From positions 1-64,000 of the forward strand of contig CAMBMS010000004.1 of the NCBI GenBank assembly GCA_945868845.1: a stretch of 64,000 nt of DNA, given 5' to 3'. The position numbers and the translations under genes were made by a program. This document shows, piece by piece, positions 4,161 to 55,232 of the stretch (position 1 is its first letter; each line of letters opens with the position of its first letter). The notes under the pieces were generated by a model that saw only the letters and a program-made list of their open reading frames with translations, was not told the DNA's origin and did no database searches. This DNA comes from Asaia bogorensis. Its GTDB lineage: Bacteria > Pseudomonadota > Alphaproteobacteria > Acetobacterales > Acetobacteraceae.

Positions 4161-7100
4161 TCATGACAGACTCGGCCGAGACGTACAAGAGAATTCGATG
4201 TCATCTGGGGCATGTGGGTTAAAACTATAGCGTTGGGAGCGAGGATCCGGAATATCGAGTCGATCTAGCAGAGCTCTTGCGGCGTCTTCCCACGAGATAA
4301 TATTTTCACAAGAAACAAGAGTAGCCTCGCCGCTGGTTACAGCCGGCAGCCAGGCATCGATGGCGGCGCTGAGTGAGGCGGCGTCCAGGCCTTCGAAGTA
4401 GCGGACGCTCTCGCCGACGATCTCACGGAAGACGGGGATGTCCCGGCAAAGGAGTGGGCGACGGAACCGCACAGCTTCGACGACCGGCAGACCGAAACCC
4501 TCAGCTTCGGAAGGGACGATTACACCGGCCGCCGCCCTATAGAGTTGCGCAAGTGTGAAGTCGTCTGGGTCATTGATGAAGTGCAGCCGCCTGTTCAGTT
4601 CCGGATGCGCTAGAACCTGCTGGACGAATTCGCCCGTGCCATAGCCGATACGGCCGGCGATGACATAATTAACCTGGCGTCCGCTCGCCCACAGGTTTTC
4701 GAAGGCGGCGAGTGTCTGTGAATGGCCTTTGCGGAGCCAGACTTGGCTGACGTGAAGAAGGCTCGGGCGGTCTCCGAATTCAAGGAACACGCGCTCCGGC
4801 GCTTCGATCGGAAGATCGCTGCCTAGATGAAACCAGGTAATGGCGGGCCTTTGGTCAACGTGGAGTCGGTCCAATTGAGCAGCCGTTTCCCGCTCTACCG
4901 ATTGCGAGATACAGATTAATTGGTCCCATTCGGAAACGGCCCTGAACCATTTTTCGTGGCCATCGGCTAAAGCTGTCGGAAACCAGTCCGGCCGAGAAAT
5001 CGGCAGCAGATCGTAGACGACGCAGCTCAGCCGTCCACCGACCTCGCGCATACGCTGTGCAAAGCCTGCCGACATGGCGAGGTTATGGTTGAGGGCGAGG
5101 CCGACGAAAATATCACCCGGGCAGGGCTCGATCTCGCCATCGGGATAGCCGGACATGGCATTGGACGTCAGGTGTTGGCCAAGTAGCTGCGTCGCAAGGA
5201 GCATTTGCTGGTTTGCGAGGTCTAGCTCGACGGGAAGGATTTCAACGTCCTTGGGCGCTATGCGGCAGAGGAACGTAATGATGCGCTCTACCACACGCGG
5301 GATTCCGCCACTCGAGAAGGCTTGTAAAGAGCCGATATCGAGCAAAAGGCGCCGCTTGCCGGTTTTTGGTGTGTTGGCCACGAGCGCAGAGATCATACGT
5401 TCGACGAAGGTCGTGGGTGCATTGTTGGGAACGATATGTGCCAGGTCTCGGACAGAAGCGAAGATCGATGCCGGGCCTTCATGGGTTTGCTCGAGTTGTC
5501 TGGCCGCGGCGCTTGCCCACTCGGGCATCGCTTTCCAGGAGCCGTTCTGTGGAGGTGGCGGCAGAACGCCGATACACATTGGTCGTTCTTCGCCCGCCGG
5601 TCCGACAGCCTCTCCCGCGCGCCCGAGGACCAGATGCGCCGCCTTGTACGCCCATGCGGGGGGCGAAGAGCTGTCGATCACAATCCGGTCGTAGTTGGAG
5701 GAGCCCGGCGCATAGGCGGTGGCGCCCGTGGCGGGATGGCCGCCGAAGGCCAAGCCCGCCGCGACGCAGGCGTCGGAATAGACGTCGATTTCGTAATGCG
5801 CTGCGAGTGCCGATGGCGCTGATAGCCGCGGAGAGTCCACAATGGCGTCGCTCAACCAGGCGAGCCTTCGGCGAGGGAGCACAGACTTTGGTATGGCATT
5901 CGAGTTTTCAAACACTTCGAGTAACTTTTGTGCTGAATGCGCCCAGGAGAAGGATGCCGCCCGTTCGCGGCCCCAGTCGCGCAGTTCGGCGTTGAAGGCA
6001 TCGTCAGTGAGAACGCGTGTCAGCACCTCTGCGATCGCCTTCGGATCGGTCGGATCGAAGACCGCGTCTGTGCGTCCAATCACCTCAGGTAGGCTGCTCA
6101 GGTTACTGCACAAGACTGCGCTACCCACAGACATAGCTTCAAGTACTGGCAGGCCGAAACCCTCCCAGATCGAAGGAAACACCACCACCGACGCCGCCGC
6201 TATCAACCTGATAAGTTCATTGTCTTCTACCCTGGCAACGAAGCGTACGTCCGAGGCTGTAAGGCCGAGATCGGCGACCTCCTGTTCCAGACTGGTATTT
6301 CTAGGGTTTCCGACCAGCACTAGCGGGCGAGCGCGCCGGAGCACCGGCGGCAACAGGGCGAAAGCCTGGATGAGGCGAGCGACGTTCTTATGGGGATAGA
6401 AGCCACCGTAATAAAGAACAAATCCGTCCGGGGCCGACAGGCCGACCCGGATGTCGGCGATGTCCTGTGGACCGAGATTCGAGGGAGCAAAGCGAGCGTC
6501 GACGCCCGCGGAAATATTTACTATCCTATCGGGGGACAGCCCCAACATTTTGATGCCATCCTGACGTGTAGATTCGGAAATCGCGAAAGCCCATTCGGCC
6601 CGCTTCAGATGGTGGATTTTCTCCCGGTACCAAATGCGGAACTGTTCAGTCGCCAGATAGATTGAGCTCAACCGCAAGGGCGTCAGATCGTAGAATATTG
6701 CGCCAGTCAAGCTGCAATCGGCTATCGAACCGATCGTCGTGCATACGTCATCTTCAAACAGACTTGTCGCGAGGAATGCATCTGGCTTCAGTCCAGCGAT
6801 AAAACGCTCGCGTACAAGCTGCGCCACGCGGGAACGCCACAATTCTGTCGTATTGTGGTACCCTAACGGCGGCTCCGGGCATTGCCAGGCGCGAATCTGC
6901 GAAAGGGGGAGAACACTGGAGAATTCCTTCCGAATATCCTGATATTCAGAGGGGCGTCCGCCGTTGGCGACGAGAATAATTTCATGTTTTGAGCCGATCT
7001 CGATCAGTGCCTTCGTCAATTGGAGCGAATAGCGCCCGATACCGCGGTGGCGGCTGGCCGTCTGGCATGCTTGCAGATCGATGACAATCCTCACGTTAAC

Positions 7101-28104: not shown

Positions 28105-28142
28105 CGATCCCCCTCACCCGAGCGTCTCTGCCGATGGTTTGA

Positions 28143-28934
28143 TTACTCCGCGGCGATTTTGGGGCGAGCTAAGAAGATTTTCAGAGTATTCCGCGGTGTG
28201 TGAACGGCGTCCATGACGGAAGTAGTTTCGTATCCGGAATGCGCGATGTAGTCGGCGCATTTTTCGTAGTTGCCGGTGCCGCACTGGTCCTAGTTGGCGG
28301 CGTCCATCAGTTCGGTGAAGGTCTTGGCGTAGACTTCACCAAGTAAGTAACATGGGCTCTGCCAGCTAAATACTTTGCGGGTGGACTTGTTCCAGCGAGT
28401 GCAAAGGTAACGCTGATTGCCGGTCAGGCAGTCAAGGAAAAGGAACGACTGATTGAATTTGTAGCTTTTGTCCTTGCCACGAAAAAATATCGCGAAAGAG
28501 CGGCTTGGATTTATGCCAGTTGAGGAAGTGCTCGTCGTCGCCGAGATTGATATCCCAGGCGAAATTTTTGTGTTGCTTGCACTGCGTGATGCGTTTGTCG
28601 GGCAGGAAGGCGTTAGTATAGAGATAAATGAATGTCCTACGTGCGGGAATTATTGCGACGACTTCCAGCATTTCCTTGTGCAGCAGAGGTTTCCTGCCGG
28701 CGGTAGCGACGACGGGGGCGCCTCATTCATCCACCGTGTCTCGGCAGTCCTGCATGGAAAGTCGTTAGTTCAGGGTTGCGTCGGGGGAGTCGTTCTTCCC
28801 GCAACCGGCGCAGGCGAGGTTGCAGCGGAACAAAGGTTCCAGCATCAGCACCAGGGGTAGCGCTTGCGGCCGAGAAAGTGTTTCTTGACGACATAGGTGC
28901 CGAGTTTGATGTCTTGGTTCAACGGCACAGGCAT
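28143..28934 (-). pseudogene. hpnH: Degraded hpnH (adenosylhopane-forming radical SAM protein)
   Basis: Reading the minus strand frame by frame recovers HpnH. The N-terminus is MPVPLNQDIKLGTYVVKKHF then GRKRYP. A one-base deletion in the C run near 28856 then shifts the frame, after which MLEPLFRCNLACAGCGK still shows the radical-SAM CxxxCxxC. Next come a TAA in LN-stop-RL and a TGA in DE-stop-GAP, the block YLYTNAFLPDKRI, a jump from WDINLGD to EHFLNWHKSKPLFRDIF that loses roughly 80 internal residues, another frameshift, and finally FLFLDCLTGNQRYLC, PCYLLGEVYAKTF, a TAG and NYEKCADYIAHSGYE. The C-terminal stop is at 28143-28145. It starts 11 bases after the stop of ispH, the order seen in hopanoid clusters. 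It cannot make HpnH. Confidence 0.88.
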
Positions 28935-28944
28935 CGTGGGTTTC

Positions 28945-29880
28945 CTAGACTTCCGCAAGCTGAGCGGGGAAGCGGAAGCGGACATTTTCCTTCACCCCGG
29001 CGAGGGTAGACACTTCAACTTCGGCAAAACGGCGCAGCCCGTCAATCACTCCTTGCACGAGCATTTCGGGCGCCGACGCACCGGCGGTGAGGCCAACGGA
29101 GGAAATGCCTGCGAACCATTCCGGTTGCAAGGCGTCTGCGTCGTCGATCAAATAGCTGGGCTTGCCCAGCTCGTCGCCGATTTCCTTCAGCCGGTTCGAG
29201 TTGGAGCTGTTGCGCGAGCCAATGACTAGGATCATGTCCACGGTGCCGGCGAGATCGCGCACAGCCTGCTGGCGGTTCTGCGTAGCGTAGCAGATATCGT
29301 TCAGATTGGGGCCGACAATGGCGGGAAAGCGCGCCTGTAGGGCCTGGATGATGGCACGAGTGTCGTCCACGGACAGCGTGGTCTGGGTGATGTAGGCGAG
29401 TTTCGTGACATCGGCGACGGCAAGGGTGGCGACATCCTCGGCTGTCTGCACCAAATATACGGTACCAGAGATCTGGCCAATCGTGCCTTCGACCTCAGCA
29501 TGGCCGGCATGACCTACCAGAACGATTTCGCGTCCCTGAGCGGCATAGCGCCGGCCCTCATTATGGACTTTTGCGACCAGCGGACAGGTTGCGTCGAGCA
29601 CGGGTAGTCCGCGCATCACGGCCTCCTCCTCTACCCGCCGGGCGACGCCGTGGGCGGAAAAGACGGTCATGGCGCCGGGGGGAACTTCGTCCAGTTCGCT
29701 TATGAAAACGGCGCCGCGCTGGCGCAGATCTCTGACGACATGGCGGTTGTGGACGATTTCATGCCGGACATAGATGGGTGGGCCGTATTTCTTCAGGGCC
29801 CGTTCGACGATCTCGATCGCCCGCTCCACGCCGGCGCAGAAGCCCCTAGGTTGGGCCAGCACGACACGTAACATTCGCAT
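28945..29880 (-). CDS. ispH: 4-hydroxy-3-methylbut-2-enyl diphosphate reductase
   Basis: 311 residues; the last enzyme of the MEP pathway, making IPP and DMAPP. The three cysteines of its [4Fe-4S] cluster are seen in [12 protein letters not shown] (Cys15), [12 protein letters not shown] (about Cys99) and [11 protein letters not shown] (about Cys193). VRHEIVHN, the SAHGV block and the TQTTLS motif are all present, and the frame is intact. It is the only intact gene in an otherwise ruined hopanoid neighbourhood, probably because isoprenoids are needed for quinones and undecaprenyl phosphate regardless of hopanoids. Confidence 0.96.
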
Positions 29881-29987
29881 ACTCCCGCTACTGAAGGGGC
29901 CATAGCGTAACCAGGGCGAATATCCAACAGGTTCGCTTTGGATTATGGCGGTGCCGGCTCAAACTGCCGGGATGGGCTTTCCTGCAC

Positions 29988-30183
29988 CGCTTCGTGACGC
30001 GCGCGGGCGCGGTGCCGATGGGGCGCCACCCCGGTAGGCGTGCTGAAGCCGCTTTGTGGCGATGAACCGTTACTGGAGGTGGCGCTCACCAGTCTGTGCG
30101 CGCTGGGTTTCCTCGAGTTTTAGATCGTGTGCGGGGTGCAGGATCCGGAGGGCCCGGCGTTAGCGGTGGTAGCATGGCTGTAA
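29988..30183 (+). pseudogene. hpnI: Degraded hpnI fragment (hopanoid-associated glycosyltransferase)
   Basis: After a short RFVTRAGAVPM and a frameshift, the plus strand reads GATPVGVLKPLCGDEPLLEVALTSLCA, a stop (TAG at 30121-30123) where homologues have Gln, then IVCGVQDPEGPALAVVAWL and a TAA. This is the N-terminal GT2-type start of HpnI, which adds N-acetylglucosamine to bacteriohopanetetrol. Everything after roughly 70 residues is missing; the next recognisable sequence belongs to HpnK. Confidence 0.78.
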
Positions 30184-30184
30184 A

Positions 30185-30650
30185 CGCGCGGCCGCGGCGG
30201 ATGCGGTGCGGCGGGGGAAGGCGATGCTGGGTTTCGCGGCGGGTCCGCGGCTGGTGGTGATCGAGGGGCCAGCACGTTGCCTGCCGTTGATATTCTTAGC
30301 TTAGTGGATACGCGCGGGTGGTTTGCATTCGGTCAATTACACTTGGCCTTCCGGTTTTTTTGTCCGATGTGCTGGCGGCATGCGGCCATGCGGTGGGTTT
30401 GGGTGCTCGCGTTTATATGTTTGGACCGCGTCTGCTGTTCGTACAGACCCGGTGCGTCGCGCTGCGCATGAACGATCATTATTTTGGTGCCGCCCGGAGA
30501 GGCGCGATAACAGCGGAACGTCTGCCACGCCTGGCGCCGTGTCTGCCGGATGGGTTTTCGGAGATTTATTTTTATCCCGCCCCTGGCCGTGACGCGATGT
30601 TAGCTGCGTTGATGCCAACCTGTGGACGCGCAGCGGAATTGGCAGCACTA
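30185..30650 (+). pseudogene. hpnK: Degraded hpnK fragment (hopanoid-associated YdjC-type deacetylase)
   Basis: Three frames together recover HpnK. AAADAVRRGKAMLGF...LVVIEG comes first, then in another frame LPAVDILSLVDTRGWFAFGQLHLAFRFFCP. After an internal deletion follow LAACGHAVGLGARVYMF, RMNDHYFGAARRGAIT, RLAPCLPDGFSEIYFYPAPGRD and AAELAAL. HpnK removes the acetyl group from GlcNAc-hopanoid. The N-terminal catalytic TADDFG motif and the middle His-x3-His region are gone. hpnJ, usually between hpnI and hpnK, has vanished completely. Confidence 0.8.
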
Positions 30651-30677
30651 TATGATGATCGCATTCTGGAAGTGTAT

Positions 30678-30908
30678 GGAAAAGGTACAGAGCGGATTCC
30701 ACGTTACCTGGCCGTCATAATGTGCGTGGTTGTCGATGAAACCGGGTGCCACGGCTCGGCCATCAGCGTTAATAGTTTGTTTCGCCAGCCTATCCAGCCG
30801 GCCAATCACCACGATCTTGCCATTCTTAGTACCGAGATCGGCTCGAAACGCCGGCAACCCGGAGCCGTCGACAATTAGGCCATGCTTGATCAACAGATCA
30901 TAGGCTAT
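30678..30908 (-). pseudogene. N-acyl-D-amino-acid deacylase-like amidohydrolase, N-terminal fragment
   Basis: The minus-strand reading YDLLIKHGLIVDGSG, then INADGRAVAPGFIDNHAHYDGQVTW and NPLCTFS, matches the first 75 residues of D-aminoacylase-type amidohydrolases, including the metal-binding HxH. A GAGGAGG box is followed, at the right distance, by ATA instead of ATG. Downstream the gene is cut by the hpnK remnant. Not functional. Confidence 0.72.
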
Positions 30909-31054: not shown

Positions 31055-32470
31055 ATGTCGCATGCGGCCCTGCGCACGATCTTGCCCGTCGCCGGCTGGC
31101 CTGCCGAGCGTGCCGATGCGGTCCGCTTTACTGGCGGCACCGATCCGATCTTGCCAACGCCCTTCTGCATCGGTGCCGCTGGCGCGGCAACGCTGGCCGC
31201 GACAGGATTGGCGGTGGATGATCTCTGGGCGTTGCGCACAGGGCGGCGGCAATCCGTGGCGGTCGATCTGCGTCAAGCCACGGCGTCCTTACGCAGCGGC
31301 CATTACATGAAACTAGGTGATGGGGAGCTGTCGCACGCACGCAATTCCATCATGGGCGTCTACCCGACGAAGGATAGCCGCTGGAGCTATCTGCACTGCA
31401 ATTTCCCCAATCATCGCGCGGCGGCGCTAAAAGTTTTGAATGTGGCGGAGGATCGCGACGCGGTGGCGCAAGCGGTGCTGGGTTGGAATGCCGCCGATCT
31501 AGAGGAAGCAATCATCGGGGCTAAGGGCGCGGGCGGGATGGTGCGGTCGGCGGTGGAGTGGCGGGATCATCCGCAGGCACGCGCGATTGCGCAACTGCCA
31601 CTGATGGAGGTGTTAAAGATCGGTGATGCGCCGGTGGAGGCGCTACCGGCTGGGGATCGGCCACTGTCTGGCGTGCGAGTTTTGGATCTGACGCGGGTTC
31701 TGGCCGGGCCGACCTGCGCGCGCACGCTCGCGGAGCATGGCGCAGATGTAATGAAGATCACGGCAGCGCATTTACCCAATCTCGGTTACCAGGAGTGGGA
31801 TACTGGACACGGCAAGCTGTCGGCGCAGCTCGATCTGCGCGATGCGGTTGCGGTCGGGACGTTGCGCGCCTTGGTGCGGGAGGCAGACGTGTTTTCGCAA
31901 GGCTATCGGCCTGGGACGCTGGCCGCGCGCGGGTTTTCGCCGGAGGAGTTGGCGGTACTACGGCCGGGGATTGTGTGCGTTTCCTTGTGCGCGTTTGGAC
32001 ATACTGGGCCGTGGGCGTCGCGTCGCGGGTTTGATACGGTGGTGCAGACGGTCAGCGGCATGACCGCCCGGCAGACCGAAATCGTTCCCGGCAAGAAGCC
32101 TGGCCCAGATTTTTATCCCGTATCCGCCATCGATTACTGCACTGGTTATTTGATGGCGTTCGGCGCCATGGTGGCGTTGGCGCGGCGCGCGACAGAGGGT
32201 GGGACCTGGCTGGTGCGCATTTCTCTGGCGCAGGTCGGTAAGTGGATTTTTGATCTCGGCGAAGCGCCCGCCGAGGCGGCGCGCGCAGCACCAGAGGAAT
32301 TTACCATCGACGAGCTAGCGCGCTGGTCGATGACGAGCGAGACGCCATCCGGAACGCTGCGGCATTTGGCGCCGGTGGTGCAATTATCGGAGACCAAACC
32401 GCACTGGGCAAGGCCTTCGGTGCCGCTCGGTTATCATCAGCCAGTATGGCCCCCACGCGACATGGTCTAA
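31055..32470 (+). CDS. CaiB/BaiF-like CoA-transferase with an apparently permuted domain order
   Basis: 471 residues. The canonical CaiB opening, LSGVRVLDLTRVLAGPTCARTLAEHGADVMKI, appears only at about residue 205. It is followed by FSPEELAVLRPGIVCVSLCAFGHTGPWASRRGFDTVVQTVSGM. The first 200 residues carry blocks that in usual family members come near the C-terminus (YLHCNFPNHRAAALKVL, then VEWRDHPQARAIAQLPLMEV). This looks like a circularly permuted or rearranged CoA-transferase. Proteins of this layout exist in the family, but their function is not known to me. The frame is intact over its whole length. It stands alone, downstream of the decayed hopanoid block. Confidence 0.75.
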   Translation: MSHAALRTILPVAGWPAERADAVRFTGGTDPILPTPFCIGAAGAATLAATGLAVDDLWALRTGRRQSVAVDLRQATASLRSGHYMKLGDGELSHARNSIMGVYPTKDSRWSYLHCNFPNHRAAALKVLNVAEDRDAVAQAVLGWNAADLEEAIIGAKGAGGMVRSAVEWRDHPQARAIAQLPLMEVLKIGDAPVEALPAGDRPLSGVRVLDLTRVLAGPTCARTLAEHGADVMKITAAHLPNLGYQEWDTGHGKLSAQLDLRDAVAVGTLRALVREADVFSQGYRPGTLAARGFSPEELAVLRPGIVCVSLCAFGHTGPWASRRGFDTVVQTVSGMTARQTEIVPGKKPGPDFYPVSAIDYCTGYLMAFGAMVALARRATEGGTWLVRISLAQVGKWIFDLGEAPAEAARAAPEEFTIDELARWSMTSETPSGTLRHLAPVVQLSETKPHWARPSVPLGYHQPVWPPRDMV

Positions 32471-40702: not shown

Positions 40703-40851
40703 CTATCAGTGCGCCCCCCAGCCCGATCGCATCCTGTCTCGCCGCGATCGCCTCGATGACTGCGAACCGTACGATATTAATGATATTAATCTTGCCCCTG
40801 AAGAACGCCTCCCAAGACTGCATGTGTTTCATCAGTTTTGGAGGAGCGGAC

Positions 40852-41097
40852 ATGACGGGGATTTTGCAGGCGCGCTACACGCTGGAGTTCAAGCGGGAGG
40901 CGGTTTGGCTGGTGCGTGGGGGTCGACCACTACCCTCGGTTGCGCGAGGTCTTGGCGTCTCCCCACAATCGATTGACAACTGGGTGAAAGCGGATGCCGT
41001 CGGTGGTCTGAAGGAAGCCAAGGGCAAGCCGGTGAATGCAGATCAGATGGAGATTGCTCGGCTGAAGGCGGTGCCCGGCATCACCATCGCACCATAG
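40852..41097 (+). pseudogene. IS3-family OrfA (helix-turn-helix) truncated
   Basis: MTGILQARYTLEFKREAVWL, then SVARGLGVSPQSIDNWVKA and MEIARL is the OrfA of an IS3-type element. GGAGGAG lies 8 bases before the ATG. Similarity ends at about codon 72; the remaining residues are unrelated, and no OrfB follows. The element lies between two other gene fragments. Confidence 0.78.
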
Positions 41098-52890: not shown

Positions 52891-53874
52891 ATGATCCTTC
52901 CGTTGGATAAGAAGCTTTCCCTCGGCGTGCAGACCATTCATCGCCGCACCGAACCCGCCACGGCGCCATGGGAACCGAGCATCGACGAGCTGGTCGAGCT
53001 GGTCGAGCTGGTGGATCGTTGCGGTTACGATTCGCTCTGGGCCGGCGATCATATTTCCTACGCCATCCCGATCCTGGATCCCATGTTGCAACTCGCGCAG
53101 GCCGCCATGGTCAGCCGCCGGCTGATATTGGGAACATCCGTGCTGCTATTACCCTTGCGCCATCCGACGCCGGTGGCCAAGCAGGTGTCCACCCTCGATC
53201 ATCTGATTGAGGGGCGGCTCATTCTAGGCGTGGGTGTCGGCGGGGAATTTCCGAACGAATATGCTGCTTGTGGCGTGCCGGTTAATGAACGCGGCGCGCG
53301 GCTGGCCGAAGGTGTGGCAGTGCTTCGAAAATTCTTCAGCGGCGAACCGGTGAGCCATGAGGGAAAATTCTATGGCCCCTTTACCGACGTGACGATGCGC
53401 CCGGCGCCGCGCCAGGTGGGTGGCCCGCCGATCTGGTTCGCCGGCCGATCGGATGCGGCGCTGCGCCGCATCGGTCGGATTGGCGACGGCTGGCTATCCT
53501 ATGTGGTGACACCGGAGACGTACAAGGCCGGGCTGGACAAGATCGCCGCCGCCACGGAAGGGCGGACGATGCAAAGCTTTGGCACCAGCCATTTGCTGTT
53601 TACTCGTGTCGATGACAGTTACGAAAAAGCCCTGGAGGCGGCTACGGAAACGCTCAGCGTGCGTTACGCGATGGATTTCCGTCGCGCCGCGCAGCGTTAT
53701 TGCGCGCTGGGAAGGCCCGAACAAGTGGCCGAGCGCATTCGCGAATTTTACACCGCCGGGCTGCGCCACGTGATCCTGGACCTGCTCGGACCCTATGAGG
53801 AACGCCAGCGCCAGATCGCCTGGTTCGCCGCCGATGTGGCGCCGCTGCTGCGCGATCTGACCCATCCGGCATGA
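52891..53874 (+). CDS. LLM-class flavin/F420-dependent oxidoreductase
   Basis: 327 residues from the ATG at 52891. Blocks: GYDSLWAGDHISYAIPILDPMLQLAQAAMVSRRLILGTSVLLLPLRHPTPVAKQVSTLDHLIEGRLILGVGVGGEFPNEYAACGVP, and GGPPIWFAGRSDAALRRIGRIGDGWLSYVVTPE near 180. A local ELVELVELVD triplet arises from a three-fold 9-base repeat near 52986-53012. The stop overlaps the ATG of the MFS pseudogene (ATGA), implying the three were once one transcript and that the product may have been exported by that transporter (inference). Confidence 0.86.
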   Translation: MILPLDKKLSLGVQTIHRRTEPATAPWEPSIDELVELVELVDRCGYDSLWAGDHISYAIPILDPMLQLAQAAMVSRRLILGTSVLLLPLRHPTPVAKQVSTLDHLIEGRLILGVGVGGEFPNEYAACGVPVNERGARLAEGVAVLRKFFSGEPVSHEGKFYGPFTDVTMRPAPRQVGGPPIWFAGRSDAALRRIGRIGDGWLSYVVTPETYKAGLDKIAAATEGRTMQSFGTSHLLFTRVDDSYEKALEAATETLSVRYAMDFRRAAQRYCALGRPEQVAERIREFYTAGLRHVILDLLGPYEERQRQIAWFAADVAPLLRDLTHPA

Positions 53875-55232
53875 AGGCTTCCCAGGATCGGGTCGATCCG
53901 CGCGTTTGGCGCATCGCCGCCACCTGCTCTTGCGGGCCGCTGATGTTGGGGCTGGATTCCACCATGGTGAATATCTCGCTGGATACACTGGGCCAGGCTT
54001 TTGGGATGCCGCTGGGAAGCATCCAATGGGTGGTCAGCGCCTATCTGCTGGCCCTCGCCTTGGCGCTGCCCTTGAGTGGCTGGCTAATGGATCGTGTGGG
54101 TGGACGGCCCATTTTCCTCGGTTGTTTCGTGATTTTTGTACTGGGCTCGGTACTCTCCGCGATGGCGGTTACGGTCGAAATGCTGATCGCGAGCCGGGTA
54201 TTGCAAGGCATCGCGGGCGGGCTATTGGCGCCGATGATACAGTTGATGATGGCCCACCATGCCGGGCGGCACATGGCACGGGTGATCGGCATCGCCGCCA
54301 TGCCGGTGATGGGAGGGCAGATGCTGGGCCCAAGCCTGGGCGGGCTTTTACTCATGCATCTGGGATGACGATGGATTTTCCTGGTCAATCTGCCAATGGG
54401 TCTTCTGGCGATGGCATTTGCTTGGTTCGCCTTGCCGCGCGATGAAGCATCCACGCCGCGCCGGTTGGATCTGCTCGGGTTCGCTTTGATTTTGCCCGGC
54501 CTGGCATTACTGCTACACGGCCTAGTGGCGTTGGCACATGGAACGGACGGTCCACTGATCGGTTTATTATTAAGTTTTCTGCTGCTGGGCGGCTTCGTTG
54601 TGCATGCGCTGCGGGCGCGGCATGGTGCCCTTATAGATTTACGTCTGTTTGCCGGGCGCATCTTTCGTGCTGCTGCCGTTACGCAATTCCTGTCTAATGC
54701 CATCAATTTTGGCGGCCAGCTCTTGTTGCCGCTTTATTTTCTCAAAGTCCATGACTCGTCGCCCGGCTTGACCGGATTGCTGCTGGTGCCGATGGCGCTG
54801 GGCATGTTCGTATCCTTACCAGTGATGGGACGCCTCAGCGAGCGATTCGGTGCACGGGTAATTTCTGGCACCGGGGCCGGCCTTGCCTTGCTGGGAACCG
54901 TACCATTTTCCCTCGCGGGGCCAGGAACATCCTGAGTAGTGCTGTGCGGCGCCTTATTTGTGCGCGGCTTTGGTGTGGGATCCATTACTATTCCCTCGGC
55001 CGCGGCTGCCTATGCCTCCATCCCGCGTGAATCGCTTAGCAGCGCGACGACGGCCATTAATATATGCCAACGCCTTGGTGGTCCGGTGGGCACCACGGTG
55101 CTCGCGCTGTTCCTGCAACACCAGTTATTGATGGATGCGCCGCTTGCGGCCTATACTGCTACTTTCTGGTTATTGACGGCTTTGGCGGGCTGCGGGTTAA
55201 TCGCGGCCTCGCATTTACTGGGCTGGCGCTGA
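53871..55232 (+). pseudogene. DHA2-family MFS transporter interrupted by two in-frame TGA codons
   Basis: One unshifted frame of 453 codons encodes a 14-TMS EmrB-like transporter: LDSTMVNISLDTLGQAFGMPLGSIQWVVSAYLLALAL, GWLMDRVGGRPIFLG and RVLQGIAGGLLAPM. TGA occurs at 54366-54368 (HLG-stop-RWIFLVN) and at 54933-54935 (GTS-stop-VVLCGAL). The first stands where a Trp is expected (GWRWIF), so it is TGG changed to TGA. There are no frameshifts, so inactivation is recent; sequencing error at two separate places is less likely. The start overlaps the LLM gene stop. Confidence 0.85.

Follow-up and report, generated by a model that had tools for sequence, protein, structure and literature searches.

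The window, which is the opening 64 kb of contig 4 in the draft genome G000, contains the gene ispH as a full open frame flanked on both sides by broken hopanoid genes. G000 comprises 3.2 Mb in 49 contigs, with a listed completeness of 100% and contamination of 0.6%, and its IspH places it within the Acetobacteraceae. For comparison, we used 80 loci around ispH (L002-L036 of the Acetobacteraceae type, L037-L081 the rest), and every protein family was sought in a set of 20 genomes; the set includes G000, and 12 of its members are Acetobacteraceae, as G000 is. Among these, G001 is a congener that is 85% complete, so gene absences in it are weak evidence. The features at the locus are the following:

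28125-28934, minus strand: hpnH pseudogene with three in-frame stops and two shifts of frame, lacking about 70 codons through a gap that keeps the frame
28945-29880, minus strand: ispH, full open frame (NF002188, 490 bits; cut-off 420)
30004-30183, plus strand: hpnI stub of about 60 codons with one TAG and one TAA inside (TIGR03472, 44.9 bits; cut-off 310)
30209-30668, plus strand: hpnK remnant with a clear part (30339-30668) and a weak part (30209-30387), only the end of the gene being clear

The hpnH model (TIGR03470) matches two main pieces, 28543-28902 (129.9 bits, with one TGA and one TAA inside) and 28209-28493 (110.4 bits, with one TAG inside), both below the cut-off of 225, and there is a third match at 28851-28934 (E 0.025). 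By tblastn, the hpnH pieces cover query residues 1-27, 14-135, 208-226 and 225-350, and their frames imply two frame changes and show that query residues from about 136 to 207 are missing with the frame kept. On the other side of ispH, the hpnI stub was also recovered by tblastn (30031-30171, E 2.5e-11), as was hpnK (30339-30665, E 1.4e-20, with the weak part 30209-30387 at E 0.09), which its model TIGR03473 matches at 30447-30668 with 44 bits (cut-off 232.6). HpnJ gave no match in G000 at E 0.001, and between the hpnI and hpnK remnants hpnJ is gone together with the facing ends of its two neighbours. The earlier note on this DNA had described an intact ispH between a ruined hpnH and a ruined hpnI and hpnK, and these lesions and scores bear out the description in full, ispH being undamaged and the other three genes being broken, partial and under their cut-offs.

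The gene directly after ispH is hpnH in 29 of the 33 Acetobacteraceae-type loci with at least 600 bases beyond ispH, and in 42 of the 44 remaining loci with enough room. In 16 of 17 Acetobacteraceae-type loci and 4 of 34 others, a divergent hpnI is found no more than 6 kb from ispH; these counts cover the loci long enough to tell and leave out those that were too short. The remnants in the window copy the order and strands of this Acetobacteraceae arrangement, and judged by gene order and strand the surroundings of ispH are what is left of a block conserved in the Acetobacteraceae, with hpnI-J-K running one way and ispH-hpnH the other. Set against the hpn islands of the family (hpnK-J-I // ispH-hpnH and hpnA-B-C-D-E-shc-hpnG), G000 has the same order and strands at ispH and the same hpnA-B-C-D-E order, but its post-squalene genes are broken or absent and ispH, hpnA and hpnC-D-E alone remain. 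In L002, frames that we read as hpnM and dxs (4166-6753) stand between hpnI and ispH, unlike the window, where only about 150 bases (29881-30031) separate the start of ispH from the hpnI stub. Neither hpnM nor dxs was found in the window, and dxs was not found in the examined stretch of contig 5 of G000 either.

Two distinct types of ispH occur in Acetobacteraceae (loci L172-L182), one linked to hpnH and one elsewhere in the genome, unlinked. The window copy is of the hpn-linked type, with 79-83% identity to most linked Acetobacteraceae copies and 50-54% to unlinked ones; its protein is 66% identical to the linked copy in G004 and 73-83% identical to those in the other linked Acetobacteraceae-type loci. 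Both types are present in G004 and G011, and only the unlinked type was recovered in G002, G005, G006, G007, G009 and G010. A second ispH was sought across G000 and not found, the window gene being the sole LYTB match in the genome profile search, and the ispH region of G001 was not found in that incomplete assembly. ispH is an essential gene of the MEP pathway. Since G000 carries the linked type alone, the ruined block had to retain it, which supports the earlier suggestion that ispH was kept for essential isoprenoids.

The loss extends well beyond the block. Intact hpnG, hpnH, hpnI, hpnJ and hpnK were sought throughout the 3.2 Mb of G000 and none was found; for hpnH, hpnI and hpnK, intact copies elsewhere had been set beforehand as the finding that would overturn the claim of loss. 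Of the 20 genomes, 11 have HpnH over cut-off, seven HpnI, six HpnJ and eight HpnK; G000 has none of the four over cut-off. The complete genome G004, which has SHC, HpnG and HpnH, is also without HpnI, HpnJ and HpnK over cut-off, so that the absence of hpnI-J-K alone should not be overread. HpnG has matches in 14 of the 20 genomes at E 0.001 (four of them over cut-off) and squalene-hopene cyclase (SHC) in 12, including nine of the 12 Acetobacteraceae; G000, G001 and G006 have neither. For the cyclase, TIGR01507 had no match in G000 at E 0.001, and the broader profile PF13249, which we take to cover the oxidosqualene cyclases of sterol producers as well, found nothing in G000, G001 or G006 at E up to 10 and matched strongly in G002. 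An oxidosqualene cyclase is thus also missing from G000 and G001 by this profile at E 10, and a search for a remnant of shc after hpnE in G000 gave chance-level matches only.

With HpnH and HpnG taken as the marks of C35 hopanoids, G000 has the former in broken pieces and no match to the latter. The loss of C35 hopanoid synthesis proposed earlier is supported by the broken HpnH, HpnI and HpnK and by the lack of matches to HpnG and HpnJ, but the proposal was too narrow, as the cyclase is gone too; since G000 has no squalene-hopene cyclase, C30 hopanoids have apparently been lost as well. On the evidence of the genome sequence, the lineage has lost shc, hpnG, hpnH, hpnI, hpnJ and hpnK, and also hpnB.

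Outside the window, on contig 5 of G000, hpnA and hpnC-D-E read as intact genes on either side of a ruined hpnB:

80005-81009, minus strand: hpnA (HpnA, 468.3 bits; cut-off 367.65)
pieces within 79398-79922, minus strand: ruined hpnB, between the kept hpnA and hpnC
from 78523, minus strand: hpnC (HpnC, 250.7 bits; barely over the cut-off of 250.45)
77672-78466, minus strand: hpnD (HpnD, 314.3 bits; cut-off 278.6)
76416-77675, minus strand: hpnE (HpnE, 370 bits; cut-off 283.05)

All three squalene enzymes are thus over their curated cut-offs, HpnC only just, and a shorter reading of HpnC scored 232. The two Asp-rich motifs of these enzymes keep their aspartates, which do not vary across the 8 aligned rows of HpnC or the 9 of HpnD. 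At least two squalene/phytoene synthase matches are present in each of the 12 Acetobacteraceae genomes. In G002, G009 and G010, shc and hpnG come after hpnE, and in G000 their place is taken by a thioesterase-like gene (PF13279) running convergently. G001 keeps hpnA, hpnC (250.8 bits) and hpnD; its hpnE is cut by a contig end so that the first part alone is present, and its hpnB is broken.

Between G000 and G001, dN/dS (Nei-Gojobori) is 0.15 for hpnC, 0.25 for hpnD, 0.12 for hpnA and 0.08 for the 101 codons of hpnE that can be compared, next to a housekeeping value of 0.095 for the nearby isocitrate dehydrogenase (PF03971), all of these being rough values because synonymous distances are 0.67-1.33, and covering a time of which part may predate the loss. 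The hpnH remnant has evolved differently: the ratio of its nonsynonymous distance to that of IspH is 2.46 (1.87-3.11, 9 pairs) versus 1.11 (0.38-2.13, 36 pairs) for intact genes, the ranges overlapping at the edge. Against an expectation of 1.11, the remnant has an excess of about 0.2 nonsynonymous changes per site, which we read as neutral decay. hpnH therefore appears long decayed, and the earlier description of the change as recent finds no support in these ratios. Lesions of hpnB common to G000 and G001 were also sought as a date of the loss; none was seen, and because hpnB is broken differently in the two species it does not date the event. Neutral change was simulated in 2000 runs per distance, counting stops only: at 0.02, hpnA, hpnC, hpnD and hpnE together came through without a stop in 210 runs, at 0.05 in 5, and at 0.1 and 0.2 in none. 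Squalene synthesis thus appears to be still under selection, with the pathway cut at squalene.

Our preferred reading, to which we give a probability of about 70%, is that the post-squalene steps of hopanoid synthesis were lost, that ispH was kept as the only copy, and that the squalene made by HpnCDE is useful in itself or feeds an unrecognised enzyme. The lineage would have lost every step beyond squalene listed above (shc and hpnG to hpnK) plus hpnB, and ispH would have survived the ruin of its block because the genome had no other copy of this essential gene. HpnD, HpnC and HpnE would still convert farnesyl diphosphate to squalene, and because neither a cyclase nor a CrtI-family desaturase was found, squalene may itself be the useful product, as a membrane component or antioxidant, or else the substrate of the unrecognised enzyme. 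Selection for squalene would then have outlasted the hopanoids.

The kept genes could instead be leftovers that happen to be unbroken while the whole pathway is being lost, with squalene of no use. The ruin of hpnB within the same operon fits such a course, as do the dN/dS of hpnD, which indicates faster change than in the housekeeping neighbour, and the failure of the SHC, PF13249 and crtI-family searches to find a sink for squalene. Four genes free of lesions in G000 are nevertheless hard to square with a remnant of hpnH that has drifted by an excess of about 0.2, given how rarely the simulated genes stayed free of stops at a distance of 0.05 and that none did so beyond it. The identities of HpnC, HpnD and HpnE of G000 to their relatives also resemble those among the relatives themselves, and we consider this explanation unlikely.

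The losses might instead mark host association, which the earlier note gave as an example of lifestyle change, together with decay across the genome. This view would draw on other broken or short genes of the window. An MFS transporter (53871-55232, plus strand) lies in at least two pieces matching PF07690 positions 6-149 and 162-291 and is, being split over separate frames, probably a pseudogene; a family III CoA-transferase (31055-32470, plus strand) matches its profile over positions 1-201 of 366 alone, its end seemingly lost or altered; and an amidohydrolase stub (PF07969, 30.6 bits; 30648-30893, minus strand) overlaps the end of the hpnK remnant. Against this view stand the genome size of 3.2 Mb, the long open frames of the window, which in a mechanical listing leave just nine gaps of more than 250 bases, and the grouping of IspH among environmental Acetobacteraceae, though in no starred clade of the tree. 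Moreover, a 2025 survey of Alphaproteobacteria (PMC12583986) names genera of the order Rhodospirillales that have no shc. One is Neoroseomonas, assigned by NCBI to the Acetobacteraceae, with species names that point to soil, lake and sediment. These losses do not reveal the lifestyle, and we regard host association as unlikely.

Squalene might also feed C30 carotenoids through a desaturase missed by our search, as HpnCDE does in Methylobacterium according to PMC10448405. G006 would offer a parallel within the family, as it is without SHC, HpnG and intact HpnH and keeps HpnC-D-E (HpnD and HpnE slightly or clearly below their cut-offs) together with a crtI-family gene pair (L158 8194-11090; C9:29198-32256), which makes C30 carotenoid use plausible in G006. 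G000 has the same three squalene enzymes as Methylobacterium, but a CrtI-family desaturase (TIGR02734) over the cut-off of 238.1 was found neither among the 45 candidates scored out of 49 in G000 nor among all 31 in G001, the best matches (42.9 and 39 bits, respectively) spanning the first 50-odd positions alone. SHC, a crtI-family gene over cut-off or both are present in 10 of the 12 Acetobacteraceae genomes, G000 and G001 being the exceptions, and the carotenoid route is very unlikely for these two. That the genes are in truth intact and only seem broken through faults of assembly or sequencing is hardly credible. The damage to hpnH, hpnI, hpnK and hpnB is made up of many separate lesions that differ in kind, whole genes are absent, and the codon-position pattern is one of long decay, yet ispH in the middle is clean.

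The five negative-control genomes of the 2025 survey are, in its account of selected genomes, without hpnC, hpnD, hpnE, shc, hpnG and hpnH together, and hpnA and hpnB are absent there wherever hpnH is absent, their functions being called elusive (PMC12583986). In having no shc, G000 resembles the Rhodospirillales genera listed in the same survey as natural cases; unlike the five control genomes, it keeps hpnA-C-D-E. In a 2017 paper on Acidobacteria, hpnA is suspected, without experimental proof, of a part in side-chain formation, and some evidence is cited that hpnA is non-essential (PMC5462960). The state of G000, with hpnA-C-D-E and without shc, hpnG and hpnH, differs from what both papers describe. 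The shc mutant of Methylobacterium extorquens, as portrayed in PMC5358736, contains squalene, no hopanoids and carotenoid in excess, and its growth is impaired; G000 is like it in having lost the cyclase with the squalene enzymes left, but its lineage is a natural one and has apparently long kept this state. In the open-licence literature (titles and abstract openings), we found no description of a bacterium with hpnCDE but neither cyclase nor desaturase. Hopanoid loss as such is already known, and the apparent cut at squalene with the synthesis genes kept seems to be a new form of it.

Hopanoids serve as traces of bacteria and their producers are predicted from genes; in this case a prediction based on nothing but hpnCDE or hpnA would go wrong. 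The case also raises the question of whether a Gram-negative membrane can benefit from squalene by itself, and cyclase mutants made in the laboratory grow too poorly to answer it. As hpnA has been kept and hpnB ruined after the loss of hopanoids, the two are separated and the role of HpnA becomes testable. Tentatively, the genus may have given up hopanoids and kept squalene as a functional end product, with HpnA acting in the squalene branch or elsewhere and not on hopanoid side chains, so that a kept module of A, C, D and E would stand against a dispensable one of B, shc and G-K.

Elsewhere in the window, a short frame at 40756-41097 on the plus strand carries a transposase N-terminal domain (PF01527) and is perhaps the remnant of an IS element.
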